The translations under genes were made by a program, and so were the position numbers. Of a DNA stretch of 64,000 nucleotides, positions 21,107 through 58,916 are shown one piece after another. Location: contig NZ_PJCF01000005.1 of assembly GCF_002835935.1 (NCBI RefSeq), positions 434,001-498,000 on the forward strand. Direction: 5' to 3'. The DNA comes from Paraglaciecola sp. MB-3u-78 (GTDB lineage: Bacteria > Pseudomonadota > Gammaproteobacteria > Enterobacterales > Alteromonadaceae). Under the pieces are notes generated by a model. It made no database searches, had not been told where the DNA came from, and saw only the letters and a program-made list of their open reading frames with translations. Each line of letters starts with the position of its first letter. Within the stretch, counting starts at the first letter, position 1.

Positions 21107-21240
21107 AGGGGGGTAAAAGAGGATGCTTGGCTGAAAAGTTAACTTTAAATATTCAAGATTATAAGTCTTTAAAAACCATAGATTAACTATTGCAGGGATA
21201 TGCATTCTAATGAAGCCCGCCGCTCCATACGTACAAAAGC

Positions 21241-21400
21241 TAATGTCATAGGCCGGTGTCGGGCTTGAATATGGCTAGCATATTTTACCGTTGCGGGGGC
21301 AGCGGTGGATTCGCACATAACTTACCAAGAGTTAGGCTCACCACACTTCCCGTTTACCCTATCCAGATTGATTTGGCATCAACCGATAGGCACCTAGAAT
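21241..21400 (-). ncRNA. Cobalamin riboswitch upstream of btuB
   Basis: Read on the minus strand the conserved blocks appear in order: GGTGCC near the 5' end (about 21390), AACGGGAAGTGTGGTGA, GCGAATCCACCGCTGCC, CCCGCAACGGTAA, and the B12-box region AAGCCCGACACCGGCCTATG (about 21245-21265). This is the order and spacing of the Rfam cobalamin element. The leader continues about 170 bases to btuB. Confidence 0.92.
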
Positions 21401-21570
21401 AGCGGCAAGGAAGATACGTTTTGTGCTCTACAAAGTCAATAAGTTGTAATGACGTTTTGTCGAGATGAACATCAAAAAATGACAAAACCGTCATAAACAG
21501 CTTCAGAATAATATTAAACGGGGTAATTGGATTATAAAAAGTTCAGGGTTTAGTAATCTATATTCAATCG

Positions 21571-42539: not shown

Positions 42540-44762
42540 TTACTCTCCCACACCTACCATTCGTTTGGCTTGATCAACAATCAACTCGCAAGACGGTAAC
42601 ACTTCATAACTTGCTGCTCCCAAAGGGATAAAACTATCATGGGCAGTAAGCCGTTCAATTTTTCGGTGGGAATAATCAACATCATGTTCAATCAGCAAAG
42701 TGATTAAGGCTTCGCTAATGGATCCCGTTTTGCGACATTCATCCACTATCAGCACATTTTTTATGTCGCCAATAGCCGCAACAATAGCGGTTTCATCTAG
42801 AGGAGCAAGCCAGCGTAAGTCAATCACGGTGCAGTTAATACCTGACTCAGCGAGAACTTTCTCAGCTTGACGACTTAAGTAATAGCCATTGCCATAACTG
42901 ATAATACACACATCTTTACCTTGCCCAAAACACCCTAGTTGCCCTGTTTTAATCGGTTGTGCATCACTGGGTTGGATATAATCAAATGTCCAAAGTGAAT
43001 CGCCTTCTTGATGTAAATCCTTTTTCATATACAGCGCTATAGGCTCTATAAATATAACCACTCTTTGCTCTTCTTGGGCCAACCTGACGGATTCTCTGAG
43101 CATTTCCACCCCATCGGCACCGTTTGAGGGGCAGGCAATGATTAAACCAGGAATATCACGAAATACAGCGAAGGAGTTGTCGTTATGAAAATGCCCACCA
43201 AAACCACGCTGGTACGCTAAACCTGCGATCCTAATGACCATTGGGTTAGTGAATTGCCCATTCGAAAAGAAGGGTAGGGTGGCGGCCTCTCCTCTTATTT
43301 GATCTTCAGCATTGTGCACGTAAGCTAAAAACTGAATTTCTGGCATAGGTAAAAAACCATTGTGAGCTAAGCCTATTGCCATGCCTAAAATCGACTGTTC
43401 ATCGAGTAAGGTATTGATGATCCTTTGCGGGCCAAACTTGTCTGCTAGTTTACTGGTAACGTTATATACACCACCTTTTACACCAATATCCTCACCACAC
43501 ATCACAATATTCTGCTGCTGTGCCATTAAATCGATCATGGTCCAATTCAACAATTTGGCGAGGTGTTGTTTCTTCTTTAGGTTGTGTTTTTCATGACTGA
43601 ATAATTCGCTGCGTTGGGCTTTAGATACGTTACTGAGGTATACCTTATCTAATTTAGGTGGAATGATACTGTGTTTGATTTTTTCAGCACAAGTCAGCTT
43701 GGGCTTAGTGATCACTTGTTTGCTAATGTCTGCCACAGACTCTTCTATGGTTTTATATAAATCGATAATTTGCTGCCCATCTAGGCAGTTGTATTTCAAC
43801 AATAAAGCGGCACTAAACAATAAGGGATCATGGGCTTCAGTATCTTCAATATATTCATTACTACGGTAAGTAAATTCAGAATCAGAGCCCGCATGTCCCA
43901 GTAAACGCACGGTTCTCATATGTAAAAACACCGGTTTGCGGAGTTTTCGAGCAATATCTACGGCTTGTTGAGTTTTGTGGTAGGTGTCGAGTAAATCTAA
44001 TCCATCACACTGGATATAATGCAGCCCCGCTCTATGCTCAAAGTTGGCCTGCACCCAACCTTTAGGTGTTGCGGTAGAGATACCAATACCGTTATCTTCA
44101 CATATAAATACTATGGGCATAGGCACAGACTGATACGCTGCCCAAGCCGCAGCATTAATGGCACCTTGTGCTGTGGAGTGATTCGACGAAGCGTCACCAA
44201 AATTGCATACCACTACGCCGTCTTTTTCCAAGACATTATCGACCGCTACCTTGCGGGACAGGCTAATGCTGAAAGCCGTACCTACTGCTTTAGGTAAGTG
44301 TGATGCGATGGTGCTGGTTTGCGGCGGAATAAATAAGCTTTTACTGCCCAACACTTTGTGCCGGCCGCCTGAAATGGGATCATCAGATGATGCAGCAAAA
44401 CTCAGCAACATATCGTACAAAGGTGTTTGTCCGGGCACTTGTTTAGATCTTTGTATTACAAAAGCGCCACTTCTGTAATGTAAAAAGGCCATGTCATTAG
44501 GCCTAAAAGCCAAGGCACAAGCCGCGTTACCCTCATGGCCTGCACTGCCAATAGTATAAAAACTTTGACCTTGTTTTTGCATGATGCGGGACTGAAAATC
44601 CAGATGACGACTCATAACTTGTGATTCGAATAAGTCTATCAATTGTGTATTTGACAAACCCACCTCAGCAGGCGTGAATGCAGAATTGACAACAGGTAAC
44701 GCATCAGATTCTATGGCCTCAATAATCTGTTGTTTAACCTTAATATTACGATCTTGCATCAT
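42540..44762 (-). CDS. 2-oxoacid dehydrogenase E1 component, alpha and beta subunits fused
   Basis: 740 residues. Residues 30-370 are the alpha half with the thiamine diphosphate site GDASSNHSTAQGAINAAAWA continuing to ICEDNGIGIS, and SGGRHKVLG. Residues about 395-740 are the beta half (IVMCGEDIGVKGGVYNVTS, LDEQSILGMAIGLAHNGFLP, IIACPSNGADGVEMLRES). The enzyme decarboxylates 2-oxoacids, most likely branched-chain ones, and passes the acyl group to an E2 lipoyl protein. The usual arrangement is two genes; this family has a natural fusion, seen in Bacteroidetes and some Alteromonadales. No E2 or E3 gene is adjacent. A LysR gene diverges from it and is its likely regulator. Confidence 0.9.
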   Translation of the reverse strand: MMQDRNIKVKQQIIEAIESDALPVVNSAFTPAEVGLSNTQLIDLFESQVMSRHLDFQSRIMQKQGQSFYTIGSAGHEGNAACALAFRPNDMAFLHYRSGAFVIQRSKQVPGQTPLYDMLLSFAASSDDPISGGRHKVLGSKSLFIPPQTSTIASHLPKAVGTAFSISLSRKVAVDNVLEKDGVVVCNFGDASSNHSTAQGAINAAAWAAYQSVPMPIVFICEDNGIGISTATPKGWVQANFEHRAGLHYIQCDGLDLLDTYHKTQQAVDIARKLRKPVFLHMRTVRLLGHAGSDSEFTYRSNEYIEDTEAHDPLLFSAALLLKYNCLDGQQIIDLYKTIEESVADISKQVITKPKLTCAEKIKHSIIPPKLDKVYLSNVSKAQRSELFSHEKHNLKKKQHLAKLLNWTMIDLMAQQQNIVMCGEDIGVKGGVYNVTSKLADKFGPQRIINTLLDEQSILGMAIGLAHNGFLPMPEIQFLAYVHNAEDQIRGEAATLPFFSNGQFTNPMVIRIAGLAYQRGFGGHFHNDNSFAVFRDIPGLIIACPSNGADGVEMLRESVRLAQEEQRVVIFIEPIALYMKKDLHQEGDSLWTFDYIQPSDAQPIKTGQLGCFGQGKDVCIISYGNGYYLSRQAEKVLAESGINCTVIDLRWLAPLDETAIVAAIGDIKNVLIVDECRKTGSISEALITLLIEHDVDYSHRKIERLTAHDSFIPLGAASYEVLPSCELIVDQAKRMVGVGE

Positions 44763-44927
44763 GCTGTTACGCCTTAAATATACTGCTAAAAAAATGCCTG
44801 TAAGCCAGTTTTTGCTCGGCCTAGGATCAGAGTGGTTAAATCATAAGGATTATTTAGCTAAAGGAATAATATTAATAATCTTTATTTGTTATAGTTTTTA
44901 CCTATATCAGATATAAGGGCATCCAAC

Positions 44928-45767
44928 GTGGATTTACGAGCATTAGAGTATTTTGTGGCTATCTACGAAAATGGTAGTTTAAGCGCGGCTTCAAAAAAGA
45001 AATTTATCGCCCAGCCTTCAATATCAGCCTCATTGAAACAATTAGAACACAGTCTCGCAACCAGCTTATTTGTGCGCCATGCTAGAGGCGTTCAAGCCAC
45101 TCATGCAGGTGAGCAGCTCTATCCTTTAGCTAAACAATTATTAGAGCAAGCAGGAGCTATTCGAGATGTTTTTAGCACAGACACCACAAAAACACCTTTT
45201 AGGTTAGGGTTGATAAAAGGTTTAGGCGTGGCACGCATGAGTGATTTGTTAGGTCGATTTACCCGTTCAGTTGACTCCTTAGAGCTCACCTTAGTTTCTC
45301 AGGATGAACCATGCCAAGCACGGATCATTAGCCGTGACTTACAGTTAAACAATGAACAGTTTGTGCCTATGTGGCAGGAGGAATATCAATTGGCTATGCC
45401 ACTGGATCATAGGCTAAGTTTAATCGACAGCATTAATATTATGGATTTACAGGATGTGGCTTTTATACAACGCAGTCCTTGTGAAGGCTGGAGCTATTTA
45501 AAAAAAGCACTAAATAATGGGAATATCAGAGTCGACACTAGAGCAAGAATACAAACCATAGAATACGCCTTAGGTTTAGTGAAGGCTGGATTAGGCTGTG
45601 CCTTTATTCCGGTATCTGAGGTAATTGTCAAAGACAAATACATCCACTTTAAACCCATCAAAGACTTGTCGATTTCAAGAGAAATTGGCTTAGGTTATAC
45701 CCAGATGTCAGACACCGTTAAAGTGTTGCAAGCTCTAGCAACTCATCATCGAGATGAGGAAAACTAA
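44928..45767 (+). CDS. LysR-family transcriptional regulator
   Basis: 279 residues, slightly short for the family (about 300). The N-terminal helix-turn-helix is LRALEYFVAIYENGSLSAAS with recognition helix AQPSISASLKQLE. The effector domain follows (FRLGLIKGLGVARMSDLLGR, VAFIQRSPCEGWSYLKKAL, GLGCAFIPVSEVIV). It diverges from the E1 fusion gene with 165 bases between, the classic LysR arrangement. The AT-rich intergenic region near 44860-44910 could hold T-N11-A sites. Confidence 0.92.
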   Translation: MDLRALEYFVAIYENGSLSAASKKKFIAQPSISASLKQLEHSLATSLFVRHARGVQATHAGEQLYPLAKQLLEQAGAIRDVFSTDTTKTPFRLGLIKGLGVARMSDLLGRFTRSVDSLELTLVSQDEPCQARIISRDLQLNNEQFVPMWQEEYQLAMPLDHRLSLIDSINIMDLQDVAFIQRSPCEGWSYLKKALNNGNIRVDTRARIQTIEYALGLVKAGLGCAFIPVSEVIVKDKYIHFKPIKDLSISREIGLGYTQMSDTVKVLQALATHHRDEEN

Positions 45768-45858
45768 CGGGCTTGAGCTGCTCGATACACTTTGGTTATT
45801 GTGAATATTGGTTTCGAACGTGTTTCAACAGCTAGTTCAGATAAATGAAATTACTGAC

Positions 45859-45883
45859 GAGATGGGGTTTATTAACCCATCTC
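45859..45883. terminator. Hairpin between convergent LysR and proB genes
   Basis: GAGATGGG(G)TT and AACCCATCTC pair over ten bases with one bulge. No strong T-run follows in either direction, so termination is likely but not certain. Confidence 0.5.
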
Positions 45884-45993
45884 ATCAGATATCTATTTCT
45901 ATGCTGCCACTTCCCTTAAGCCTCTTGAATAAGACAATAAAGGAAAAAGCAAAATCAGTATTCGACAGAAGCGCTGAGTGTTAGTTAATCACA

Positions 45994-47163
45994 TTAAACA
46001 GGTTCATCCCAAGAAAGATGATGCTCAGCCAATACCACCAAATTTTCACTATTAATTAAGCGATCTGAAGCTGCATATCCCAGTATGTTTTTAACATCTT
46101 CATCAGGGCGGCTTGAAATAATGGCGGTTTCATCTGATGAAAAATTACACAAGCCACGTGCTATTTCCTCACCTTTCTCATCATAGACGTGAAGCACATC
46201 TGCGCGCTCAAAATCTCCGTGTATTGAAACCACATCATGGCATGAAAAACCATCATCACCCCCAAATAATGAGTCAGCGACATCCTGTTTTATCACTAAG
46301 CTACCGGCCATTTGCAAGCGGTCAGTCAGCCAGACATTCCATGCCGATGAAGGCGATGAGTAAGCAATACATTTGGTATGCCTGCGTTCGCCACGAAGAA
46401 TTGCCGTCACCGGTTCTTCCATTGTTCCTCTGGCAATAATGGTAGTACAACCCGCATTCTGTGCCATATTTGCTGCTTGCAATTTAGTGAACATACCACC
46501 AGTACCCAAAGAGCTGGTTCCGCTTGCAGCTTCCATGTAACTGCTTACATCTTCGATAGATTCTATGAACACCGCCCCTTCTTCTGAAGGATCTCGGTCA
46601 TAAACGCCATCGATACAGGTTAATATAAACAGATACTCTGCCCCAATCATCTGAGCCACTTTGGCTGCAAGTCGATCATTGTCGCCAACGCGAATTTCTT
46701 CAGTGGTCACGGTATCATTTTCGTTTACGATAGGCATTACGCCTTGTTTTATCAAACGATGAACCGTATTTTTAACATTGAGAAATCGACGTCTATTTTC
46801 GAGATCATCTAAGGTGACTAATACCTGCGCAATATCAAAACCATACTCAAGAGCAATTTGCTTGTAAGCATGCATTAATATCGGTTGTCCACAAGCCGCT
46901 GCCGCTTGTTTATCCTGAACACTGGCGTTTTCAATGGTGCAGCCAACAGTATTGAGACCTAGTGCGACAGATCCCGAGGACGTGAGTACCACTTCGTAGC
47001 CTTGGCCACGCAGCGTAGCAATATCATTAAGTAAACCATGCATAAATGCAAAACTAGGGGTTAAATTTTTAACGTTTGCTAATAGGCTTGAGCCGACTTT
47101 TATGACTATACGTGGGGTTTTTCGTGGGAAGGTTTCGTTTTTTTGTAGGTCAGATGTGGGCAA
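45994..47163 (-). CDS. proB: Glutamate 5-kinase
   Basis: 389 residues. An amino-acid kinase domain (IVIKVGSSLLANVK, LTSSGSVALGLNTVG, VNENDTVTTEEIRVGDNDRL, GTGGMFTKLQAANMAQNAGC) is followed by a C-terminal PUA domain (LVIKQDVADSLFGGDDGFSC, EIARGLCNFSSDETA). The enzyme phosphorylates glutamate in the first step of proline synthesis, with feedback by proline. The start is a TTG with GGAG five bases upstream; the next ATG is at residue 40, inside the domain. proA is not adjacent, unlike in most relatives. Confidence 0.95.
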   Translation of the reverse strand: MPTSDLQKNETFPRKTPRIVIKVGSSLLANVKNLTPSFAFMHGLLNDIATLRGQGYEVVLTSSGSVALGLNTVGCTIENASVQDKQAAAACGQPILMHAYKQIALEYGFDIAQVLVTLDDLENRRRFLNVKNTVHRLIKQGVMPIVNENDTVTTEEIRVGDNDRLAAKVAQMIGAEYLFILTCIDGVYDRDPSEEGAVFIESIEDVSSYMEAASGTSSLGTGGMFTKLQAANMAQNAGCTTIIARGTMEEPVTAILRGERRHTKCIAYSSPSSAWNVWLTDRLQMAGSLVIKQDVADSLFGGDDGFSCHDVVSIHGDFERADVLHVYDEKGEEIARGLCNFSSDETAIISSRPDEDVKNILGYAASDRLINSENLVVLAEHHLSWDEPV

Positions 47164-47623
47164 AATTACTCCGTACTTTGATTAATTAAATAAAATAATT
47201 GAATTGAACCGATAACAAAATGGGTTCATAAAAAATTCAAATATTTCCCTAATGTTCTCTTATTATATAACGATAATCATGAATACTGAAGTGCCATAGC
47301 TAATTTGGCCTATTATTAGCGTCTTAATAAGAGGTGAGAGTTTTTGTCACTCGTATTAATTCGGTGCACCTTCAGTATATTTTTTTGAGGTTAATCTTTC
47401 TCTTGCCCATAGTGTTTGAAAGCACTCAAAAGTGCTCAAACTTGTCTTTGGGGCAGTGAACTAGCGTGATAATTCGGTTACAAGATTCAGCTTAGATAAA
47501 ATAAACCCTGATTTTGAAAATGCGATGTTCAGTTTCAAACATTAATTCGAAGCCACAACTGTGACACTTTAAAATAGTGAACTTGGCGATAATCCTTCAG
47601 AGGATGAAAGTGAGGACACTATT
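47164..47623. other. Intergenic region with inverted repeat between proB and btuF
   Basis: 460 bases. The only structure I see is the inverted repeat GTTTGAaAGCACT / AGTGCTCAAAC at 47414-47441, which lacks a T-run. It lies between the proB promoter side and the 3' end of the cobalamin operon and may serve as operator or processing site. Confidence 0.5.
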
Positions 47624-48511
47624 TTAGCTTTGAGTTTGGTAAAATTGCCGGGCAGTATCAATCTGTTCGCATAAGACGATCACTTCATCCAACATACGGG
47701 TGGTCATACGATGGGATTTGTCGGCATTTGGATGAAAAATAAAATTATTTTTTACCGCTGGAATATGCGGCCACTGTGACCAACTAAGCCCATCGGGGCT
47801 GTCTGCACTATGTTGTGCACTATGCTGACTTGGCTGGATTACAACTTGGGGTAAGGTGACTAATACTTGTTCTAGGCCAATAGACGGATAATCGTCTTGT
47901 GCATTAGCAAATGGGTTGCTGGCTCCGCACAGCTCGATTTGTTGTTGTGGCCATGCTTTGTTTGCCACTGTGCGTAACGGCCGTGACCATAACTCATAAA
48001 ACACACTGACTTTGCTTTTGTTGCTGTAGGTGTTTTTTATTGTTTGCAGTGTTTTCAGATATTCTGCGGCTATATTATTGGCCGCTGTTTCTCGGCCTGT
48101 TATTTTACCTAACATGATTAATTCGTTAGCCACATCTTCTAAGGTTTGTGGGTGCGAATAAATCACCTTAAGTTGATATTTTTCGAGGCGCGCTAAGTCA
48201 TCCGCTGGGTTGCCAGTTTTCCAAGCAATGATCACGTCAGGTTTAAGTTGAATAATTTTTTCAATTTGTAAACGTGCGTAATTACCAACTCGTAAAATCT
48301 TTTCGGCGGCTTTGGGATAGTCTGCATGGGCAGTGGTGCCGATGATTTGGGAGCCAGCACCAATAGCGTATAACGACTCAACTATATGCGGAGCAAGAGC
48401 AATAATTCGTTTCTTTTGAAGTAAGTCATCACTAGCGCTATTGGCTACAGAATAATTGGTATGAAAGCCAATTAAGACCAATAACATTACATTTAAATAG
48501 CGGCTTGTCAT
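47624..48511 (-). CDS. btuF: Periplasmic vitamin B12-binding protein
   Basis: About 295 residues. The signal peptide is MTSRYLNVMLLVLIGFHTNY up to SVANSA, followed by the BtuF/FecB-like domain: RIIALAPHIVESLYAIGAGS, IGTTAHADYPKAAEKILRVG, NYARLQIEKIIQLKPDVIIA and ELCGASNPFANAQDDYPSIG. It would carry B12 to BtuCD. GGTGAG lies four bases before the ATG at 48511; an in-frame GTG at 48523 overlaps cobO. It is the last gene of the operon. Confidence 0.92.
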   Translation of the reverse strand: MTSRYLNVMLLVLIGFHTNYSVANSASDDLLQKKRIIALAPHIVESLYAIGAGSQIIGTTAHADYPKAAEKILRVGNYARLQIEKIIQLKPDVIIAWKTGNPADDLARLEKYQLKVIYSHPQTLEDVANELIMLGKITGRETAANNIAAEYLKTLQTIKNTYSNKSKVSVFYELWSRPLRTVANKAWPQQQIELCGASNPFANAQDDYPSIGLEQVLVTLPQVVIQPSQHSAQHSADSPDGLSWSQWPHIPAVKNNFIFHPNADKSHRMTTRMLDEVIVLCEQIDTARQFYQTQS

Positions 48512-48516
48512 CAGGC

Positions 48517-49119
48517 TCACCAATCAATGCCTTGCTGTGCTTTGATACCATTGTCGAAAGCATGTTTGACAGGTCTTACTTCGCTGACTGTATCTGCCAT
48601 TTCGATTATTGAGCGATGGCAAGCGCGGCCAGTGATAACCACGTGTTGATCTTTTGGCCTGGCGGTTAACGCAGCCAGTACTTCATCCAAATCGATATAT
48701 TTGTAAGTGATCATGTAAGTGATTTCATCTAACAGCACCACATCAATAGAAGGGTCTTGCAATAATTTTTTACTATGTTCCCAAGCCGCTTGAGCTGCTA
48801 GTTTATCGGTGTCTTTGTCTTGGGTTTCCCAAGTAAAACCTGTGCCCATTACATGAAATTCGACGTCATGTTTTTCCAATAAATTACGTTCGCCACACTC
48901 CCAGCCACCTTTAACATATTGCACTACTGAGGCTTTTAATCCGTGTCCAACCGCTCGGGCAATGGTGCCAAAACCTGAGGTAGATTTACCTTTTCCGTTA
49001 CCGGTTAACACCAGCAGTAATCCCTTATCTTCTTGAGCAGCGGCAATACGTTCGTCTACTTTGGCTTTTTGTTCTTGCATTCGCGCTTTATGGCGGTCGT
49101 TATCTTTTTCATCAGTCAT
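48517..49119 (-). CDS. cobO: Corrinoid adenosyltransferase
   Basis: 200 residues, full length for BtuR/CobO. The P-loop [20 protein letters not shown] (about residue 36) is followed by [40 protein letters not shown] and [20 protein letters not shown]. It transfers the adenosyl group of ATP to reduced corrinoids and so activates imported cobalamin. The gene is intact, starts inside the end of the damaged cobQ and ends next to btuF, so it has been kept while neighbouring synthesis genes decayed. Confidence 0.95.
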
Positions 49120-49666
49120 GGTGTTTGCTCTTTGTTTGATTAGTGATAAATGTGTGTATTTTCTGCCAATCTAAATGTGCCATACAGGCATCGGCTAGAC
49201 GGTCTAATTCATGTTCTTGTTGGCTAGCATAGTTGTCGGTTTTATCGATATCTGCAACGGCCCAAGCGATAATCTGTTGCAACGCTTCAGGTAAGTCGAA
49301 CATGCCATGTAAGTAACCGCCACAAATTCCTAATACTTTGCCACCGTAGCGCAAGTGTCTGACAATATTTTTATCCCAGCCATGTTGTCTAAGCAGTTTT
49401 AAATCTGCTCTGACATGATTACTGCCAGGTAAAATAATAAGATCAGCAGCGGGAATTTTTTGTCCTTGGCCCACAAAGGTCAGTTCAATTTGAGGATGAG
49501 CCCGCAGCATATCAAAGTCGGTATGGTTACTGATCCGCGAAAAAGCAGTCACCGCACTATTTAATGCCATATTTTGTGGTTTAAAGGGCGCGACTTGGTA
49601 TCCCAAACGTTTTAAACAACGACAAAATCCTGCCACCAACACACTTTTACCCGCATCGGATGTCAT
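49112..49666 (-). pseudogene. cobQ: Cobyric acid synthase with two large in-frame deletions
   Basis: 184 residues where CobQ has about 490. The N-terminal P-loop block is present ([20 protein letters not shown] through [14 protein letters not shown]). It then jumps to the amidotransferase start ([41 protein letters not shown]), losing about 195 residues that include most of the ATP domain. A second jump goes from GICGGY straight to [15 protein letters not shown], losing about 75 residues. The nucleophile cysteine remains, but the ATP-domain core and the catalytic histidine region are incomplete. About eight N-terminal residues are also missing. The frame is open throughout, which is notable, but amidation activity is not plausible. 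Confidence 0.88.
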
Positions 49667-49845
49667 TTTGATGTGTCTTTTAAGGTCATAGGCAGGCCTG
49701 CAGCAATAAAGGTCACTTTATCCACTCGGGCTGCCAAAGCTTGATTTAGCCAACCTGCTTGATCGACAAACTGACGACTGACTTCTCCTATAGGTATGAT
49801 GCCTAACCCGACCTCGTTGGACACTAAAAGTAAGTTCAGATCCAT
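49663..49845 (-). pseudogene. cobU: Adenosylcobinamide kinase, C-terminal third only
   Basis: 60 residues: NLLLVSNEVGLGIIPIGEVS then [20 protein letters not shown] and VTFIAAGLP, the C-terminal end of CobU/CobP. The N-terminal GTP-binding P-loop (GGARSGKS) is absent, so kinase activity is lost. Homology actually begins a few codons before the ATG (AEVPMDLN), right at the junction with the cobT fragment. GAGGT precedes the ATG. It overlaps cobQ by four bases (ATGA), preserving the old operon join. Confidence 0.88.
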
Positions 49846-49856
49846 AGGTACCTCAG

Positions 49857-49985
49857 CTAAGCGCCAATGGGTTTGGTTTTAGTGTCGATGTGATGTTGAA
49901 TGTCAGGTAGCTGAGCCTGATCCAGTTGTGGAATATTCCAATATTCAGATGTAAAAACTGGATGCTGAGTTGTGTGCATACTCAT
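49857..49985 (-). pseudogene. cobT: cobT N-terminal fragment
   Basis: A 42-codon frame with AAGGTAA before its ATG: EYWNIPQLDQAQLPDIQHHI followed by DTKTKPIGA and a stop. This is the conserved N-terminus of nicotinate-nucleotide:dimethylbenzimidazole phosphoribosyltransferase, which continues KPLGALGRLE in intact enzymes. The rest of cobT, any cobS between, and the start of cobU are deleted; the break lies within GCGCTTAGCTGAGG. Confidence 0.85.
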
Positions 49986-50006
49986 TGGGTTACCTTGTTA
50001 ACTTTT

Positions 50007-50065
50007 GTTTAACTGTTTAACTGTTTAAATGTTTAATAGTGAATTGCTAACTGCTAACTGCTAAC
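50007..50065. repeat. Two short tandem repeat tracts at the end of btuC
   Basis: An 8-bp unit GTTTAACT occurs four times (50007-50038, last two imperfect) and a 7-bp unit TGCTAAC three times (50045-50065). The second tract covers the btuC stop codon at 50061-50063. Confidence 0.85.
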
Positions 50066-51083
50066 TGCGTCTTTGGCTCATCACGATTAGAAAAAACACA
50101 CTGCCAATAGCAGAGGTGATAATGCCAATGGGAATTTCTTGATTGGGCAGCGCCACACGCGCCAACACATCGACCCACACCATAAAACAGCCTCCTAGTA
50201 ACACGCAGCCGATGGTGACAATACGGCTGGTGACGCCCAACCAACTTCTAACAATATGTGGGATCATCAAACCAACAAAACCTATACCACCACAGTAAGA
50301 CACAATGCAGGCGGTGAGAGCGGCGCAAATTGCCAGTGATAAAACCCGTAAACGAGTGACCTGTACGCCTAGTGTTTTAGCGTTTTCATCGCCAAGTAAT
50401 AGTGCGTCCATATGCCTGCCGTAAAGTAACAATATTGCCACGCTTACTACCACTACTGGCAGCATCACCCAGGCATACCAGGTTTCTACTCGGGCTAAGC
50501 TGCCCATTAGCCAAAATATCACTTTGTTGGCGGCAAAAGGTTCACCTAAAAATAATAAAAAATGGCTCAGCGCACTGAGCATAAAAGACACGGCTATGCC
50601 TGCCAGCAACATATGTTCGGTTTTGCTGCCCAAGGTTTTCGAAGCCAAAAGCTGTACCAAAAATACCGAGAACAAGGCGCCTAAAAAAGCCGCAAAAGGT
50701 AAGGCCAATGAAAATGAGATATTAGGAAACATTTGCATCAGCCCAATTTGCTCGGCTAACTTGCTATCAAATAACAAAGTGGCAATGCTGGCACCTAATC
50801 CGGCTCCTGATACCACACCAAATAAATAGGGGTCGGCTAAACCATTACGGGTAATATTTTGCAATGTGGCGCCCGCTACCGCTAAGCCTGCGCCCACTAA
50901 AAATCCCACAAACACTCTGGGCGCGCGGATTTCCCAAAAAATCATATTGTTAACGGGGTCTTGGCAACCCTGAGTGATGCATTGAATCAGTTCAGGACTG
51001 GATAAATCAGCCGCGCCAAAAAATAACGCGCCCATGGGTGAAGCGATAACCAGTAAACACAAAAATATCCATTTTTTATTCAC
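50061..51083 (-). CDS. btuC: Vitamin B12 ABC transporter permease
   Basis: 340 residues of the FecCD/BtuC family with about ten membrane segments. Family blocks are FWEIRAPRVFVGFLVGAGLA, VAGATLQNITRNGLADPYLF, LLLGDENAKTLGVQVTRLRV and GGIGFVGLMIPHIVRSWLGV, the coupling region for the ATPase. It forms the inner-membrane channel with BtuD and BtuF. The start overlaps the btuD stop by four bases. Its 3' end consists of short tandem repeats, followed by the cobT fragment. Confidence 0.92.
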   Translation of the reverse strand: MNKKWIFLCLLVIASPMGALFFGAADLSSPELIQCITQGCQDPVNNMIFWEIRAPRVFVGFLVGAGLAVAGATLQNITRNGLADPYLFGVVSGAGLGASIATLLFDSKLAEQIGLMQMFPNISFSLALPFAAFLGALFSVFLVQLLASKTLGSKTEHMLLAGIAVSFMLSALSHFLLFLGEPFAANKVIFWLMGSLARVETWYAWVMLPVVVVSVAILLLYGRHMDALLLGDENAKTLGVQVTRLRVLSLAICAALTACIVSYCGGIGFVGLMIPHIVRSWLGVTSRIVTIGCVLLGGCFMVWVDVLARVALPNQEIPIGIITSAIGSVFFLIVMSQRRS

Positions 51084-51913
51084 GTTCGGGGGTTCGCTAT
51101 AGAAGATACCACATCTATTTCAACTTCATCAGGAGGGTAAAAGTCCACCCGAAATGCCGCATTGTTATCGTCATGTCGTATGTGGCAAGGGATCTTAAAT
51201 ACTTGTTCTAAGCGTTGTGAGGTAAGCACGTGTTCAGGTGGGCCTTGTGCGACCATTGTTCCGGCGTCCAATAAACAAAGATGGTCACAATAATTAGCCG
51301 CTAAATTTAAGTCATGTAGGCTCATGACCACTGTAATGTTGAGTTTGTGAGCAAGGGAGCGCAGCAACTTAAGCACTTGGTGCTGATAATATATATCGAG
51401 ATGATTAACCGGCTCGTCTAAGATGATCAGTGCGGCTTTTTGCACTAAAGCGCGGGCAATCAAACCTCGCTGTTGTTCACCGCCAGATAATGAATTAAAG
51501 CTTTGCTGAATTTTGTTATCTAGTCCTACCCGGGATATGGCGTCGCTGATGCTTTTGTCGTCTTCGAGAGTTTGTCTACTAAGCAATGATTTGTGAGGTA
51601 ACAGGCCCATACGCACTATTTGGTATAGGTCTAATGCAAAGACACTTTCGTTAAGCTGATTCACTACTGCGATTTGTTTTGCCAAAGACATTGGGTCGTA
51701 ATCTGTCAGCGTTTTGTTATTCCAACTGACGCTGTGATGACTCGCTAATTGCCCCGATAACATTTTAAGTAAACTGGTTTTACCCGCACCATTGGGACCC
51801 AATACACCCATCACTTTACCTGCACCTAAGTTAAGGCACACATCAGACAAAATCTGCTGTTGACCTATTTTTAAGTTTACATTGGTGGCAATAAGGGAGC
51901 TGGGGCTAGACAT
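51080..51913 (-). CDS. btuD: Vitamin B12 ABC transporter ATPase
   Basis: About 277 residues from the ATG at 51913; an in-frame TTG at 51940 is possible. Walker A is GVLGPNGAGKTSLLKMLSGQ, the Q-loop AVVNQLNES, the signature NSLSGGEQQRGLIARALVQK, Walker B ALIILDEPVNHLDIYYQHQV and the switch histidine VVMSLHDLNLAANYCDH. It powers BtuC. It is the first gene of the operon, behind the cobalamin riboswitch at 52090-52215. Confidence 0.93.
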   Translation of the reverse strand: MSSPSSLIATNVNLKIGQQQILSDVCLNLGAGKVMGVLGPNGAGKTSLLKMLSGQLASHHSVSWNNKTLTDYDPMSLAKQIAVVNQLNESVFALDLYQIVRMGLLPHKSLLSRQTLEDDKSISDAISRVGLDNKIQQSFNSLSGGEQQRGLIARALVQKAALIILDEPVNHLDIYYQHQVLKLLRSLAHKLNITVVMSLHDLNLAANYCDHLCLLDAGTMVAQGPPEHVLTSQRLEQVFKIPCHIRHDDNNAAFRVDFYPPDEVEIDVVSSIANPRT

Positions 51914-52089
51914 GCAAGGACTCACACTCAGGCTTAACAATCAGAATAACATTCACAATGTTGACTCAAATAGCGAGAGCAGGGAAACACATCAAAAAAC
52001 AGCATGAAAACTGTCAAGATATAATGTTATCCGTGTGTTCCCGCACGAAGATTAAAAGGTATCTTAAGGTGAAAAAGCGACCTCAAGCA

Positions 52090-52215
52090 TATAACAAGGC
52101 TGGTATCTGACTTACGTTTCTAATCAACGTTTACAGTTGCGGGTACAGTTCTGGATTTTCACCAAATTCCCATTTAATTTGTGTTGTTGTTGTAACCACA
52201 CAAAACCTTATTTAT
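52090..52215 (-). ncRNA. Cobalamin riboswitch upstream of the btuDC operon
   Basis: On the minus strand: GGGAATTTGGTGAAAATCC, AGAACTGTACCCGCAACTGT, then the B12 box AAGTCAGATACCAGCC (52093-52112 region). This is a textbook cobalamin aptamer. The leader then runs about 170 bases to btuD and contains the small hairpin CGTG/CACG near 52035-52050. It should repress the btuDC-cobO-btuF operon when cobalamin is abundant. Confidence 0.95.
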
Positions 52216-52641
52216 AGGCCGTGAAATATAGCAAGTATGTGGATGGTATTCGAGGGGTAATTGGTTTGATGACCTAATATTAGGTTATCAAACGTTATTT
52301 TGGTTTTTTAGCTCTAGCGTGTACTGCCTTCCTTTTAATCTTTTTGAACATCCACGATTTGGCTAGAAACGTGAAATACAGGACGTATTTCATAAAAAAT
52401 GCCACTCGAGGGCAATGCTCTTCATCCAACTATTACTCAATTTTCAGCCTTCTAATTTCAGGTCCTTTAGCAGTGGCTAGTGATAATATTACCATCGTAG
52501 TTTCGAGCAGAATAACAGCTCAAATCTTTATGGCTGTGCAAGCCGTTTACCCATCTCGTCGCTGATTAATCCAAAGCTAGATACATAAAATCGTCATAAT
52601 TACATGCCATGATTAGGGATTATAATTGTGGGCGTTAGACT
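52216..52641. other. Gene-free region with one copy of a 33-bp repeat
   Basis: Between the cobalamin riboswitch and the sensor gene. Apart from the 33-bp repeat at 52405-52437 I see no real gene; the 73-codon frame at 52344 is discounted. Confidence 0.5.
52405..52437. repeat. 33-bp direct repeat, copy 1
   Basis: Identical to 59087-59119 (begins CTCGAGGGCAATGC, ends CCAACTATTACT). Weak similarity extends to the left (AAAAA.G.C) and right (TCAATTT). The two copies flank the sensor-sbcDC block in the same orientation. Confidence 0.9.
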
Positions 52642-53754
52642 ATGTTAGCAACAATACAGTTTGATTCGATTAAAACTCGTTTAATCATTATTATCGTCGT
52701 GTGTTTATTGGGAATGCTAGTGTTGGTTGGTAACCAAATTTATAATACAAACAGGTTAATTAATCTCAATAGTCAAAGTAAACAGTTACTTAATTTAAGT
52801 CATGAGTTACTGCAATTACGTCGCCATGAAAAAGACTTTTTACTACGTCTAGATCCTCAATATGTTGACCAGTTTAAAGTGCGAGCCGAGGGTTTTTCTC
52901 AACAGATCACCCAGTTAAATCCTATTTTTGCGAAACTAGGTGACACCAACACCTTATTTGATGAACTCAGTCTTAGTTTTACCCAGTATCGCTCGCAATT
53001 TTTTTCTTTGGTTAGTTTACAAACTCAAATTGGACTCAATGAAAATAGTGGTTTCCAAGGGCGTTTTCGTCAGGCCACTCATGGTTTAGAAGAGCAATTG
53101 CAACGGCTCAATCAAACCGATTTACAAGTACTTATGCTACAAATGCGCCGTAGTGAAAAAGATTTTTTACTCCGTAAACATTTGGATTATGTTGAACGTG
53201 AGAAGCTGTTTTACCAACAACTATCTTTAGCCATCACTCAAAGCAACCAGCTTAATGTCCAGCAACAACAAGCCTTATTAAACGCTTACCAGCACAGTTT
53301 TATGCAGTTAGTGACGGCTTATCAAACTATTGGGTTAGATCATACTCTTGGTTTGCAAGGTCAGTTCCGCGAGCAAGCCCACGTACTGGAAGGTCAACTG
53401 ACCAGGGTAAATAACAAACTGACTGTACTCATATCCGTCGCTGAAAAACGAATAGAGCAAACCAGCTTATTGATTATGACGATTACCACTTTGGTCTTAA
53501 TGACATTACTGATTAAAAGTTATATTACCTTTCAACGGGCTTTTTTAAATTTTGTGATGTTTTTCTATCGATGCAAACGGGAATATCAGCATATGGATGG
53601 CAAAAAGCTGGGTTTCTCAGAGTTTAAATATTTAGCCACTATTGCCAACGAAATGATTGATGCCCGTTGTGATATCGAGCGTCAGCTGCAAGCGGCTAAT
53701 CAACATATTGCTGAATTAGAAAAAGTCGATGATGACAGCGCTAAAGCGCAGTGA
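52642..53754 (+). CDS. Membrane sensor with HBM-like domain and no output domain
   Basis: 370 residues. A membrane segment at about residues 12-30 is followed by a periplasmic all-helical domain of about 240 residues with two related halves: LLQLRRHEKDFLLR (about residue 50) and MLQMRRSEKDFLLRK (about residue 168). That duplication marks the helical bimodular (HBM) sensor domain, known from McpS-type chemoreceptors that bind dicarboxylic acids. A second membrane segment (SLLIMTITTLVLMTLLIK) leads into only about 75 cytoplasmic residues, ending in a coiled coil (ERQLQAANQHIAELEK). No methyl-accepting, kinase or cyclase domain follows. It may work with a partner protein or be a decayed receptor. 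Confidence 0.75.
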   Translation: MLATIQFDSIKTRLIIIIVVCLLGMLVLVGNQIYNTNRLINLNSQSKQLLNLSHELLQLRRHEKDFLLRLDPQYVDQFKVRAEGFSQQITQLNPIFAKLGDTNTLFDELSLSFTQYRSQFFSLVSLQTQIGLNENSGFQGRFRQATHGLEEQLQRLNQTDLQVLMLQMRRSEKDFLLRKHLDYVEREKLFYQQLSLAITQSNQLNVQQQQALLNAYQHSFMQLVTAYQTIGLDHTLGLQGQFREQAHVLEGQLTRVNNKLTVLISVAEKRIEQTSLLIMTITTLVLMTLLIKSYITFQRAFLNFVMFFYRCKREYQHMDGKKLGFSEFKYLATIANEMIDARCDIERQLQAANQHIAELEKVDDDSAKAQ

Positions 53755-53919
53755 AACGTTAGCGGGGCATTAATCTAATTTTCTAGCCATTTTTTACTGC
53801 TACAAGATCTTTTCATCTGTCCAGAGAACGGATAGTGTAGTGTTAGATACTTGAGTACTAACAAGCAGTTATTGCATGATTTTTGATCACTTAGCTGGTT
53901 ATTTCACGGAACTTTAAGC

Positions 53920-55248
53920 ATGAAGCTATTGCATACCTCTGATTGGCATTTAGGTCAGAGTTTTTTTACCAAAAGTCGTAAGGATGAACATCAGGCATTT
54001 ATCAACTGGTTATTAATTCAAGTTGAACAGCAGCATGTTGACGCCGTGATTATCGCTGGGGATATTTTTGATACCGGCACTCCGCCCAGTTACGCACGGG
54101 AAATGTATAACCAGTTTGTTGTGGATATGCAACAGCTTAACTGTGTTTTAGTGGTGCTTGGCGGCAATCATGACTCGGTTTCTACGCTAAACGAATCCAA
54201 ACAAATTCTTGCCTGTTTAAATACCTTTGTGGTGGCCAGTACCGGCGTCGCTATTGACGAACAAGTGTTTACTATCCCCGATAAGCACGGACAGCCTGGA
54301 GCAATTTTATGTGCCGTGCCTTTTATCCGGGCCAGAGATGTATTGCAAAGCACGGCAGGTGAAACCGGATTACAAAAACGCCAAGCACTAGGCGATGCGA
54401 TTAAGCAGCATTACCAAACACTTTATCAAATAGCCTTACTTAAACAAAAAGAACAAAAAGAACAAAAAGCAAACGGGCTAAATATACCCATCATTGCCAC
54501 CGGACATTTAACCGCGCTAGGCGTGAGCCAATCCGAAAGTGTGCGCGACATTTACATCGGTACCTTAGACGGTTTTGCCGCAGACGGTTTCCCCCCAGCA
54601 GACTACATTGCGCTGGGACATATTCATAAACCGCAAATCGTGGCTAAGTCTGAACATATTCGTTATTGCGGCTCGCCTATCCCTTTAAGTTTTGATGAAC
54701 TCGGTACTCAAAAGCAAGTGATGCTGGTGGAGTTTACTGGCGCACAGCGCACCAGTTTACAACCTATCGACATTCCTATTTTTCAGCCCATGTTAGTGAT
54801 TAAGGGCGACCTTGCAAAAATTGAGAAAGAACTACAGCAGCTTAACGCTGATGCAAAAGCTGACACAAAAGCTGACACAAAAGCTGACACAAAAGCTGAT
54901 ACAGGTGCGCAGCCCGTCTGGTTATGTCTGGAGGTGGATACCCAGGATTATTTATCGGATCTGCAGCAGCGTATTCAAACTATGACACAAGGGTTAAATG
55001 TAGAGGTATTACAACTGCGCCGCACGCGTAACCAGCGCAGACAATTACTGAGTCAAATGCAAAGTGAAACCCTTGCTGAATTAACCCCCGAAGACGTATT
55101 CGAAAAACGCTTAGCCATGGAGACATTTGATACAAGCCCTGAAGTAGACTCAGAAAAAACCGATGAACAACAAACCACACTGCAACAAGTGCGACAGCGG
55201 TTTAGCCAAATATTGTCTGAAGTAGAACATCAGGGGACGGATGTATGA
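53920..55248 (+). CDS. sbcD: Exonuclease subunit SbcD (Mre11 homologue)
   Basis: 442 residues. Metallophosphoesterase motifs appear in order: TSDWHLGQSF, AGDIFDTGTPP, GGNHDSVSTL, ATGHLTALG and ALGHIHKPQI. The SbcDC complex cuts hairpins and DNA ends. The C-terminal part carries a 12-bp tandem repeat encoding ADTK units (54847-54906) not seen in typical SbcD, in a linker before the DNA-binding cap. Its stop overlaps the sbcC start by four bases, so translation is coupled. Confidence 0.94.
   Translation: MKLLHTSDWHLGQSFFTKSRKDEHQAFINWLLIQVEQQHVDAVIIAGDIFDTGTPPSYAREMYNQFVVDMQQLNCVLVVLGGNHDSVSTLNESKQILACLNTFVVASTGVAIDEQVFTIPDKHGQPGAILCAVPFIRARDVLQSTAGETGLQKRQALGDAIKQHYQTLYQIALLKQKEQKEQKANGLNIPIIATGHLTALGVSQSESVRDIYIGTLDGFAADGFPPADYIALGHIHKPQIVAKSEHIRYCGSPIPLSFDELGTQKQVMLVEFTGAQRTSLQPIDIPIFQPMLVIKGDLAKIEKELQQLNADAKADTKADTKADTKADTGAQPVWLCLEVDTQDYLSDLQQRIQTMTQGLNVEVLQLRRTRNQRRQLLSQMQSETLAELTPEDVFEKRLAMETFDTSPEVDSEKTDEQQTTLQQVRQRFSQILSEVEHQGTDV
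54847..54906. repeat. In-gene 12-bp tandem repeat in sbcD
   Basis: Five 12-bp units (GCTGACACAAAA and variants) encode ADAK-ADTK-ADTK-ADTK-ADTG. The three central units are identical. Multiples of three keep the frame, so unit number can vary by slippage without breaking the gene. Confidence 0.95.
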
Positions 55249-58200
55249 AAATTTTAAGCATTCGATTAAAAAACCTCAACTCACTTAAGGGGGAATGGAA
55301 AATTGATTTTACCCAATCGCCTTTCGCCGAAAACGGCCTATTTGCTATCACTGGGCCAACCGGCGCGGGCAAAACCACCTTATTAGATGCCATTTGTTTG
55401 GCGCTTTATCATCAAACTCCAAGGCTGGGGCAAATCACTAATTCATCTAACGAAATCATGACCCGGGGCACCAGTGAGTGTTTGGCCGAGGTGGAGTTTG
55501 AAATAAAAGGCACCGCCTATCGGGCGTTTTGGAGTATGCGCCGTTCACGGGGTAACGTGGATGGCAATCTTCAACCTGCCGACGCTGAATTAGCCGAAGT
55601 GGCCACAGGCAAAGTACTGGCCACTCAAATTAGGCAAAAAAGTGAAGCAATAGAAAAATTAACCGGCCTAGACTTTGGCCGTTTTACCAAATCAATGATG
55701 CTATCCCAAGGGAATTTTGCCGCGTTTCTTAACGCAGATGAAAATAAACGGGCGGAGTTACTCGAAGAGCTTACCGGTACTGAAGTCTATGGTCAGATTT
55801 CAGTTAAGGTGCATGAACACCACAGCCAAGCCAAACAAAGATTAAAGGAATTACAGGTGGGGGCGAGTACATTTCAAGTGCTCAGCGCAGAGCAAAAGCA
55901 AATCTTGCAACAAGAGCTTAATCAATTACAAGACAAACAAACAGGCATTGAGCAACAAATTAAAACCAACCAAAGCCATGTGCACTGGTGGGACAAACAA
56001 CTCAGTGCTCAGCGAAGCCAACAAGATGCCACAATCTTATGCACTGACGCCAAACAATCCATCGACAATGCACAAGTCGATCTAAGTTTACTTGAAAAAA
56101 GTGCACCAGCTGAACGCCTTCGCGCCAATTGGCAACGTTTAGGTGAGGTATCACAGCAACATACCAAAACCAGTGAGCAACTGGCTGCCCAGCAAGAAAC
56201 CAAGGCGAAGTTGGTAATAGAGTTAACAAGCGCAGCCGACAAGTTGTCTGTGGCGGCACAATCATTACAAAGCAGCAAGCAAGCCCAACAAAGTCAGGAA
56301 CAGCTGATCACCGAGCAGGTTATGCCGTTAGATAGTCAAATAAGCGCCTTAGCTGAAAAGCACAGTGATAAACAACAAACTATTCGCCAGTTGCAGCAAC
56401 AACAGCAAGAGTCGACCACAAAACAGCAAGAGTTGCAGGCAGCGTTAACAGGCTTAAACGAGCAACACTCCCTTACCCAAAACTACCTAACTGAACATTC
56501 TGCAGACAGTGCTGTAGGCGAGCAACTTAGCGGCTGGAGTGCGTCACTTGCGCAACTTGAGCGAGATAATCAAACCGCCCAAGCTCTGCATAAACAAACA
56601 GTAAGCATCGACAGCCAACTCAATGAAAACACCCAGGTTAAGCAACAGCTGCAGGAGCAATGGCAATACCTGTCTGAACGTTTAAAGCAGCAACAGTCAG
56701 CGCTGGCAGAGAAAGAATCGCAATATCAAGCCTTAACCCTTGAGTCAGACGCAACAACCCTTGAAAACCATTTAGCCGCTATTAATCTTCGCTGGCCTGA
56801 ACTCTATAGCGCCAAAGAAATCCAACGCCGTTATTTACAATTAGAAAAAGACAAAACAAACAACCACAGTGAGTTGCAAACTAGCCACCCCCAAGCTGAA
56901 GAACTAAGGGCACAGCGCAATACTTTATTGCACAAGTACCAAGAACAAGCGCAACATTGCAAAGATTTACAACTGTTAGTCAGCCAAGAAGAACAGTTGG
57001 CTCAATATCGCCAGCTGCTTAAAGCAGATCAAGAATGCCCGTTGTGCGGGGCGACCGATCACCCCCAATCTTCTGAGATGGCGATAGATATTCCTGAAAC
57101 CGTGACCAGAAAACACCAAGCTGAAACGCTGTTAAACCAATTAGAACAAGACGGAAAAGCGGTTCGCGAAAAACTCGACTCCCTAGAACTTGAAATCAAA
57201 CAGCTACAAACCCACTCGGCTGAATTGAACACACTCGAAACTGAGCTAAGCGCTTTATGGCAAGGCCGAGTAGAAACCTTACAACTAGACTTTGCCATAA
57301 GCGACCAGCAGAGCATGCAAGCCTTCGAGCAAGGTATGCAAAATCAGTCCGAACAGCTATCAAAACAATTAAAGCAACTTAGTCAGATAGATAAAGAACG
57401 CCAAGCAAACAAAGAAGCTTTAAACATTACCGAGCGGGGAGGGGATAAACTCAACAGTGAACTAAAATTACTGGATCAAAGCCAACAATCTTTGCAACAA
57501 AGCAGTCAAAAAACGTCCCAAGAATACGCAACGCTTATTGAGTCTGTAGATAAAAATCGAACGACTTTGATCAGCAATATTGTTGCCTTAGGTTACATTG
57601 CGCCGCCAGAAAATGAACTGCTGCAATGGCTACAAAATAAACGTCAAGATGTTCAGCTTTATCAACAAAAAATGCACGAAAAAGAACAGTTAAGTAAACA
57701 AATGGCTGTTAAAAGTGCTGAAAATGCAGAAATTGAACAGCAGTTGCTGTCTATGCATGAACAAGTGAAATCGATGCAGTTAGAAGAAGTTACGCTAAAA
57801 CAGCAATGGGATGAAGCCACTAAGCAGCGCCAACAGTTATTTGGCGACAAAACCGTTTTACAAGCAAGGGCAGAGGCTAACAAACAACTCGACAGTGCAG
57901 AGCAAATAAATCAGACAGCAAGTCTTAGCCATAAAAATATTGCGCAACAAGATAACGAGCTATTAGCTGCCATCAAAGCGAAGCAACAACAGCAAACAGA
58001 GCTAGAACTGTCACTCAAAGAACACACCGACAACTGGCATGAATTACTCACCAATAGCCCTTTTGTTAACCAAGGCGAATTTGAAATGGCACTGCTACCC
58101 GAAGAACAGCGTAGCCAGCTAATCAGTTTGAAACAAAGACTCGATACACAATTACAGCGCGCTACTACGTTGTTAGAGCAGTCTGGCGCCCAGCTCAACG

Positions 58201-58916
58201 AACTTAATAATATCGAACAAGCAGCCTTGTGGCAGCAAACCTCACAAGAAGAGGTAAAGGCACTACTGCAGCAACTACAAACTGAAAAAGATAGGTTAGT
58301 AGAAAGCAGAGGTGGCATTAGCAGCCAATTATCGGCAGACCAAAAAGAAACCTCACGGCAACAAGCATTACTCGACCAAATCGAACAACAAAAACAAGAT
58401 TATGACCAACTGAGTTACCTGCACGGTCTAATAGGCTCCGCCAACGGCGATAAATTTCGCCGCTTTGCACAAGGGCTAACCCTAGATAACTTGGTATACC
58501 TTGCAAACAAACAACTCGATCGCATCCACGGACGTTATTTGCTTAAACGCAAAGAAGAACAAGGGTTAGCCCTTACCGTGCTTGATACTTGGCAAGGTGA
58601 CGTAGAGCGGGATACCAAAACCCTTTCGGGCGGTGAAAGTTTCTTGGTGAGTCTTGCGCTAGCTTTGGCCTTGTCTGACTTGGTGAGCCATAAAACCAGT
58701 ATTGACTCGCTGTTTCTTGATGAAGGATTTGGCACTTTGGATGCTGAGACTTTGGATATTGCTTTGGATGCGCTGGATAATCTGAATGCGTCGGGGAAGA
58801 TGATTGGGGTGATTAGTCATATTGAGGCGATGAAGGAGCGTATTCCTACGCAGTTGCGGGTGACAAAGAAGAGTGGGTTGGGGGTGAGTGAGTTGGATCG
58901 TGAGTTTGCGGTTTGA
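55245..58916 (+). CDS. sbcC: Exonuclease subunit SbcC (Rad50 homologue)
   Basis: 1223 residues. Walker A is FAITGPTGAGKTTLLDAICL (about residue 36). Long glutamine-rich coiled coils flank the zinc hook DQECPLCGATDHP (about residue 597). The ABC signature is KTLSGGESFLVSLALALALS and Walker B DSLFLDEGFGTLDAETL near the C-terminus. SbcC clamps DNA ends and, with SbcD, removes hairpins and protein-blocked ends. All motifs are intact and length fits proteobacterial SbcC. Confidence 0.95.
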   Translation: MKILSIRLKNLNSLKGEWKIDFTQSPFAENGLFAITGPTGAGKTTLLDAICLALYHQTPRLGQITNSSNEIMTRGTSECLAEVEFEIKGTAYRAFWSMRRSRGNVDGNLQPADAELAEVATGKVLATQIRQKSEAIEKLTGLDFGRFTKSMMLSQGNFAAFLNADENKRAELLEELTGTEVYGQISVKVHEHHSQAKQRLKELQVGASTFQVLSAEQKQILQQELNQLQDKQTGIEQQIKTNQSHVHWWDKQLSAQRSQQDATILCTDAKQSIDNAQVDLSLLEKSAPAERLRANWQRLGEVSQQHTKTSEQLAAQQETKAKLVIELTSAADKLSVAAQSLQSSKQAQQSQEQLITEQVMPLDSQISALAEKHSDKQQTIRQLQQQQQESTTKQQELQAALTGLNEQHSLTQNYLTEHSADSAVGEQLSGWSASLAQLERDNQTAQALHKQTVSIDSQLNENTQVKQQLQEQWQYLSERLKQQQSALAEKESQYQALTLESDATTLENHLAAINLRWPELYSAKEIQRRYLQLEKDKTNNHSELQTSHPQAEELRAQRNTLLHKYQEQAQHCKDLQLLVSQEEQLAQYRQLLKADQECPLCGATDHPQSSEMAIDIPETVTRKHQAETLLNQLEQDGKAVREKLDSLELEIKQLQTHSAELNTLETELSALWQGRVETLQLDFAISDQQSMQAFEQGMQNQSEQLSKQLKQLSQIDKERQANKEALNITERGGDKLNSELKLLDQSQQSLQQSSQKTSQEYATLIESVDKNRTTLISNIVALGYIAPPENELLQWLQNKRQDVQLYQQKMHEKEQLSKQMAVKSAENAEIEQQLLSMHEQVKSMQLEEVTLKQQWDEATKQRQQLFGDKTVLQARAEANKQLDSAEQINQTASLSHKNIAQQDNELLAAIKAKQQQQTELELSLKEHTDNWHELLTNSPFVNQGEFEMALLPEEQRSQLISLKQRLDTQLQRATTLLEQSGAQLNELNNIEQAALWQQTSQEEVKALLQQLQTEKDRLVESRGGISSQLSADQKETSRQQALLDQIEQQKQDYDQLSYLHGLIGSANGDKFRRFAQGLTLDNLVYLANKQLDRIHGRYLLKRKEEQGLALTVLDTWQGDVERDTKTLSGGESFLVSLALALALSDLVSHKTSIDSLFLDEGFGTLDAETLDIALDALDNLNASGKMIGVISHIEAMKERIPTQLRVTKKSGLGVSELDREFAV

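Follow-up and report, generated by a model that had tools for sequence, protein, structure and literature searches.

We analysed a 64,000-nucleotide stretch of the genome of Paraglaciecola sp. MB-3u-78 (positions 434,001 to 498,000 of contig NZ_PJCF01000005.1; hereafter the window), whose minus strand carries a cobalamin (vitamin B12) operon in which genes for import and adenosylation enclose the remains of genes for cobalamin salvage. Behind a cobalamin riboswitch lie the ATP-binding cassette (ABC) transporter genes btuD and btuC, followed by stubs of cobT, cobU and cobQ, the corrinoid adenosyltransferase gene cobO (btuR), and btuF, which encodes the periplasmic B12-binding protein (Table 1). 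The genome (G000; 6.48 Mb) is rated 100% complete and 2.36% contaminated, and the contig bearing the locus is 687,557 bases long. A second riboswitch precedes a gene for a BtuB-like TonB receptor elsewhere in the window.

Table 1 Cobalamin-related features of the window and the deletion junctions of the operon.
Feature	Coordinates	Strand	Evidence
Cobalamin riboswitch, in front of operon	52081..52225	-	Rfam RF00174, 75.4 bits, E 9.2e-17
btuD, ABC transporter ATPase, intact	51080..51940	-	PF00005, E 1.7e-27; full length, 91% identity to G001
btuC, permease, intact	50061..51083	-	PF01032, E 9.8e-86; full length, 94% identity to G001
cobT stub, about the first 40 codons, stop just past the junction	49857..49985	-	ORF list; comparison with G001
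cobU stub, short middle piece and last ~54 codons	49663..49845	-	PF02283, E 2.2e-15, profile positions 116-168 of 168
cobQ stub, 184 codons, three separated pieces	49112..49666	-	NF001989 (cobyric acid synthase), E 1e-53 in three stretches; PF07685, E 3.6e-24
cobO/btuR, corrinoid adenosyltransferase, intact	48517..49119	-	TIGR00708, 234.6 bits (cut-off 167.75); full length, 97% identity to G001
btuF, periplasmic B12-binding protein, intact	47624..48523	-	PF01497, E 4e-24; best NCBIfam model BtuF, below cut-off; full length, 86% identity to G001
Second cobalamin riboswitch, before BtuB-like receptor	21234..21412	-	RF00174, 62.6 bits
BtuB-like TonB receptor, 626 aa	19192..21072	-	Best NCBIfam model TIGR01779 (TonB-B12), 254 bits, below cut-off of 599.7
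Junction 1: rest of cobT, cobS and start of cobU lost	49868..49869	-	1968 bp vs G001; 1974 bp vs G017/G019
Junction 2: loss within cobU, in frame	49829..49830	-	156 bp vs G001, G017 and G019 alike
Junction 3: cobC and 5' end of cobQ lost; cobC start in frame with cobQ	49663..49664	-	693 bp vs G001; join also in P0001
Junction 4: loss within cobQ, in frame	49543..49544	-	621 bp vs G017/G019; 622 bp vs G001 (one extra base in its cobQ); join also in P0001
Junction 5: loss within cobQ, in frame	49317..49318	-	318 bp vs G001; 303 bp vs G017/G019; join also in P0001

An earlier reading of the letters alone (the sequence-only reading) had placed minus-strand stubs of cobT, cobU and cobQ between btuC and cobO, in an operon with a riboswitch and otherwise intact genes, and these points are borne out by the open reading frames (ORFs), by family matches and by comparison with the congener G001, against which all four neighbouring genes are full length. 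Other details had to be amended. The cobU remnant, described as the last 60 codons, is real and composite, with a few mid-gene codons fused to about 54 from the end of the gene. The cobQ gene is indeed shortened, to three pieces whose ORF opens with the start codon of an otherwise deleted cobC, and the absence of cobS and cobC from the locus, evident from alignment to relatives, had gone unmentioned. Four-base overlaps, claimed for the operon at large, join btuD to btuC and the cobU remnant to the cobQ remnant, but the overlap of the cobQ remnant with cobO spans 8 bases and that of cobO with btuF 7. The CobT stub is 95% identical to G001 CobT over 40 residues, and has no Pfam match and only a weak one in NCBIfam (NF000996, E 0.023). 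Relative to intact orthologues, large parts of the catalytic domains are gone, as expected of pseudogenes; in the cobQ stub PF07685 is covered at positions 3–86 of 196.

Alignment of the window to the congeners G001, G017 and G019, with gaps placed by the aligner, resolves the missing sequence into five deletions. The largest, at junction 1, joins genes whose frames differ, and a stop closes the cobT stub at once; in the alignment to G019, the 693 bp gap of junction 3 was placed as two, of 352 and 341 bp. The blocks that were kept (at least 39 bases each) are 88.7–94.2% identical to G001, and the neighbouring sequence about 88%. Positions 42552–58913 of the window are colinear with G001 in matches of at least 60 bases, and in this survey, made at the level of matched blocks, alignment breaks fall in intergenic sequence or in the cob genes with one exception, a G001 match that stops 28 bases short of the end of the ORF at 44928–45767, beside a 3.6 kb difference. 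All five junctions coincide with short direct repeats that match in part, including exact runs of 5–7 bases. With G001 as a stand-in for the ancestor, the summed score of junction homology was 32, compared with a mean of 11.9 for random placements, and was reached in 0 of 20,000 such placements; for single junctions, P ranged from 0.005 to 0.021.

The same operon could be followed through 22 Paraglaciecola genomes, G000 included. CobT and CobS match in the same 13 of them, and all 13 loci display the order btuD-btuC-cobT-cobS-cobU-cobC-cobQ-cobO-btuF, with CobU of G009 in two pieces. In ten of these, the operon adjoins a strong match to CbiB (E no higher than 6e-76); the three without it are G001, G003 and G017. 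At an E limit of 0.5, the sequence beside btuF yielded no remnant of cbiB, either in the window or in eight related loci that lack the gene, save one hit at E 0.30 in L046 (L042 served as positive control). For P. algarum (G003), the partial text of the species description lists cbiB (PMC11324256), and the only CbiB-family match that we found in that genome is of a weak, genus-wide type (74.9 bits). In G001, one extra base in cobQ (L036, about 4632–4646) splits the gene into two frames, through either a true frameshift or a sequencing error.

Other members of the genus have lost part or all of the salvage genes. G020 has no CobS, has had cobC and half of cobQ deleted, and retains part of cobT; its breakpoints differ from those in the window, and it carries four stops in the CobU frame and three in the main CobQ stretch, compared with none in the intact CobU of G001. 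To judge from the sequences, decay in G020 is independent of that in G000. G010 keeps cobC and cobQ, and G015 keeps cobC, though CobT, CobS and CobU are gone from both (L043, L040). None of the five genes occurs in the stretches read from G012 and G021, where the G021 contig ends within btuC and the G012 assembly is 84% complete, and G005, G011 and G018 have no match for CobO, CobT, CobS or CobU. A tree of BtuC, CobO, BtuF and BtuD, built from 19 Paraglaciecola genomes (G000 among them) with one outgroup, unites G000, G001 and G020 (support 99; 53 inside the trio), G012 and G021 (97), and G015 and G017 (91), with several weak inner nodes (24–59). By parsimony without regain, and subject to these weak nodes, we estimate at least five independent losses among the 19 operon-bearing genomes (G000, G020, G012 with G021, G015, and G010).

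Five clean deletions within 900 bases are an unusual density, and one explanation would be that they arose in assembly or sequencing and do not exist in the organism. This is contradicted by a second sequence, P0001, a 147-residue database protein encoded on a contig of a different length (39,395 bases), which displays all three cobQ joins. At residues 83 and 137 P0001 departs from the window sequence; beyond these its last four residues are different and it stops 37 residues short of the window's stub, as if after a frameshift. It is known as a protein only, with errors in that record possible, and likely derives from a second strain. Because the three cobQ junctions recur in it, an assembly error is unlikely. 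The length of the contig and the lack of any CobS or CobT match in a genome rated complete likewise speak against an artefact, which we regard as extremely improbable.

No intact copy of cobT, cobS, cobU or cobQ was found elsewhere in G000. CobT and CobS have no match in the genome, the sole matches for CobU and for GATase_3 (CobQ-type) are the stubs themselves, and the intact cobU, cobS and cobT that mark a cobinamide salvager are thus missing; cobC is gone at the locus and was not sought outside it. A plasmid search returned 15 records with partial matches, none covering 80% of the query. CbiC, the sole corrin-ring enzyme searched for, has no match in any of the 22 genomes, and by this marker corrin-ring synthesis is absent. 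Non-homologous enzymes exist for some salvage steps, and the species might still salvage precursors through such unrelated proteins. However, the genome yields no match to the enzyme that closes the nucleotide loop, CobS, and the one CbiB-family match in G000 (best model PRK08878, below cut-off) belongs to the weak type present in 21 of the 22 genomes, including the three that have no CobO, CobT, CobS or CobU. Continued salvage by this route therefore appears very unlikely.

The genome does have the marks of a B12 importer, with btuD, btuC and btuF under an RF00174 riboswitch, MetH without MetE, and the BtuB-like receptor with its own riboswitch, although the receptor scores below its model cut-off. 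MetH matches in all 22 genomes and exceeds the cut-off in 21. In G000 the match spans the full model above cut-off (1808.8 bits) and comes from a pair of neighbouring ORFs (358 and 888 aa; L140:593-4342) separated by six bases. Between them they encode every one of the five Pfam domains expected (homocysteine, pterin, both B12-binding, and activation), the split falling between the homocysteine domain and the rest. Two MetH matches of about 340 and 850 model positions were also seen in G002, G004, G006, G007, G009, G013 and G016, and one 1278-codon frame in G008; a split MetH seems common in the genus. MetE has no match in G000 and, among the 22 genomes, exceeds the cut-off in G019 only, with weaker matches in 17 others, mostly to the C-terminal half. 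With MetH present and MetE absent, import of B12 is predicted to be needed for methionine. G005, G011 and G018 have MetH, no MetE above cut-off and no CobO match, and seem to need B12 without this adenosyltransferase. Methylmalonyl-CoA mutase was found in none of the 22 genomes, and the 22 matches to NrdJ, all below the family cut-off and in open frames of about 770–830 codons, were read as NrdA-like and not counted. These results point to no adenosylcobalamin enzyme that would keep cobO in use.

We conclude that the locus is very probably a riboswitch-controlled B12 operon whose salvage part (cobT, cobS, cobU, cobC and cobQ) was destroyed by at least five deletions, in a cell that takes up complete cobamide. 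The sequence-only reading had seen here a gene erosion that spared import and adenosylation, and this view holds, as congeners carry the five genes intact in the same place and no other CobT, CobS, CobU or CobQ was found in the genome. Two of the checks that it had proposed agree: the genome-wide search for further copies of cobT, cobU, cobS and cobQ found none intact, and the alignment with close relatives mapped the five deletions. The findings that it had named as refutations did not materialise so far as examined, intact copies being found nowhere else and the cobQ junctions recurring in P0001. It had further suggested a passage from synthesis or salvage to dependence on imported cobalamin. 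The dependence on import is upheld by MetH without MetE, and the starting point can be refined: since CbiC is missing from all 22 genomes, a salvager of precursors is the most likely ancestor, rather than an organism that made B12 de novo, and the lineage most likely went from precursor salvage to dependence on imported cobamide.

Substitution patterns in the remnants agree with this conclusion in part. Pooled over 278 stub codons, omega (the ratio of nonsynonymous to synonymous rates) between G000 and G001 is 0.218, as against 0.056 for cobO and 0.067 for btuC in the same pair; for the same stub codons (275–278 usable) it is 0.081 for G017–G019, 0.111 for G001–G017, 0.118 for G000–G017, 0.142 for G000–G019 and 0.166 for G001–G019. 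Several observations count against the conclusion drawn above. By parsimony, 10 nonsynonymous and 8 synonymous changes fall on the G000 branch and 14 and 8 on that of G001, with 25 unresolved; with branch counts this similar, the nonsynonymous excess is not specific to G000, and support from the substitution tests for relaxed constraint there is only partial. Relaxed selection in the salvage genes of G001 before the deletions was considered and rejected, the relative-rate test not being significant (P 0.62 and 0.08). The stubs have open frames and diverge from G001 no more than their neighbours do, which means that the loss is recent or that the stubs are not yet free to drift. Finally, no second sequence showed junctions 1 and 2; a search with the CobU-stub protein gave 15 proteins, of which the ten inspected were short CobU pieces only and provide no test of these junctions. 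As to the frame-splitting base in G001, part of the omega excess may be G001's own, or the base may be a sequencing error.

Open frames and an identity to G001 not below that of the neighbours would also be expected if the stub proteins had been recruited to a new function, the cobQ stub for instance as a small corrinoid- or glutamine-binding protein. Its translation still contains a P-loop start and the GATase Cys motif. Yet most of both catalytic domains has been lost, the last 37 residues are missing in P0001, and the stub carries changes at sites conserved between G017 and G019 (e.g., Lys to Asn), all of which makes recruitment highly unlikely.

The lengths of the deletions bear on how the erosion proceeded. 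All four deletions inside frames have lengths divisible by three (156, 693, 621 and 318 bp), and stop/start overlaps link the cobU and cobQ remnants with cobO and btuF, as would be the case if the stubs were kept as a translational relay and only those deletions had been accepted that let ribosomes travel on from btuC into cobO and btuF, which overlap. CobQ proteins of another lineage with an internal deletion, open and in frame (P0112, P0114 and P0115), could be taken in the same sense; these related proteins of 180–197 residues apparently share one large internal deletion, joined at Leu-Gly-Tyr. However, among pairs of short repeats within the cobU and cobQ genes of G017, 51–56% (about 54%) are in phase, so that four of four deletions would be in frame by chance in about 7–10% of cases. 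P0001, again as a protein only, ends early as after a frameshift, G020 has stops in both the CobU frame and the main CobQ stretch, and protein databases hold open forms only, which biases them towards in-frame deletions. Given the phase of the repeats, the premature end of P0001 and the G020 stop codons, in-frame bias cannot serve as proof of selection, and we consider a relay unlikely. Equally doubtful is the more general idea that operon decay is steered, dispensable inner genes disappearing chiefly through deletions that still bring ribosomes to the outer genes that are needed, while pseudogenes persist as an in-frame relay. If it were true, the Paraglaciecola B12 operon, with independent losses estimated at five or more and caught at different stages, would offer a natural system in which to test it.

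For plain erosion of the salvage genes, the following course can be proposed. The BtuB-like receptor, btuCDF and cobO were kept, and would allow complete cobamide to be imported, adenosylated and used at least by MetH. Once salvage was no longer needed, deletions may have arisen by slippage or RecA-independent recombination between short repeats, leaving stubs that are presumably non-functional and a cell predicted to be unable to use cobinamide or cobyric acid. The likely order of loss begins with cbiB, because its operon-linked form is missing in G000, G001, G017 and G003, and would continue with cobQ and then the rest.

Gene loss of this kind is already known; the unusual feature here is that one genus displays its stages as a clear series. 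A literature search of titles and the starts of abstracts gave no description of this Paraglaciecola case. Loss of coenzyme B12 synthesis in enteric bacteria is reportedly lineage-specific, according to the title of a study by Lawrence and Roth from 1996. In contrast to the enteric case, only the salvage end was lost in Paraglaciecola, and import stays. The available portion of Shelton et al. (PMC6461909) classes genomes as cobinamide (Cbi) salvagers or non-producers and suggests that some are losing the pathway. By those classes, congeners with cobTSU and no CbiC resemble Cbi salvagers and the window species falls to the non-producers; the classes, as that portion presents them, follow gene sets, whereas here remnants and junctions are visible beside intact operons of the same genus. 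Among Mycobacterium tuberculosis and its kin, close relatives differ by deletions and point changes in B12-related genes, with horizontal gain as well (PMC4428469, in excerpt); those organisms are pathogens, and the excerpt reports no salvage operon beside import genes. Closer at hand, P. algarum G1-23T has salvage-end cobalamin genes and is possibly able to make B12 from precursors, according to the part of its description at our disposal (PMC11324256), whereas the window species of the same genus lost them. Most Alteromonadales are described as B12 auxotrophs in an extract of a further study (PMC9296465).

The stages found in Paraglaciecola comprise the full operon with cbiB, the full operon without it, a possible single frameshift, multiple deletions, stop-ridden remnants and clean loss. 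From such a series the order and the mechanism by which a vitamin pathway is lost can be read in the DNA, and predictions follow as to which species can use B12 precursors from seawater and which need the finished vitamin.
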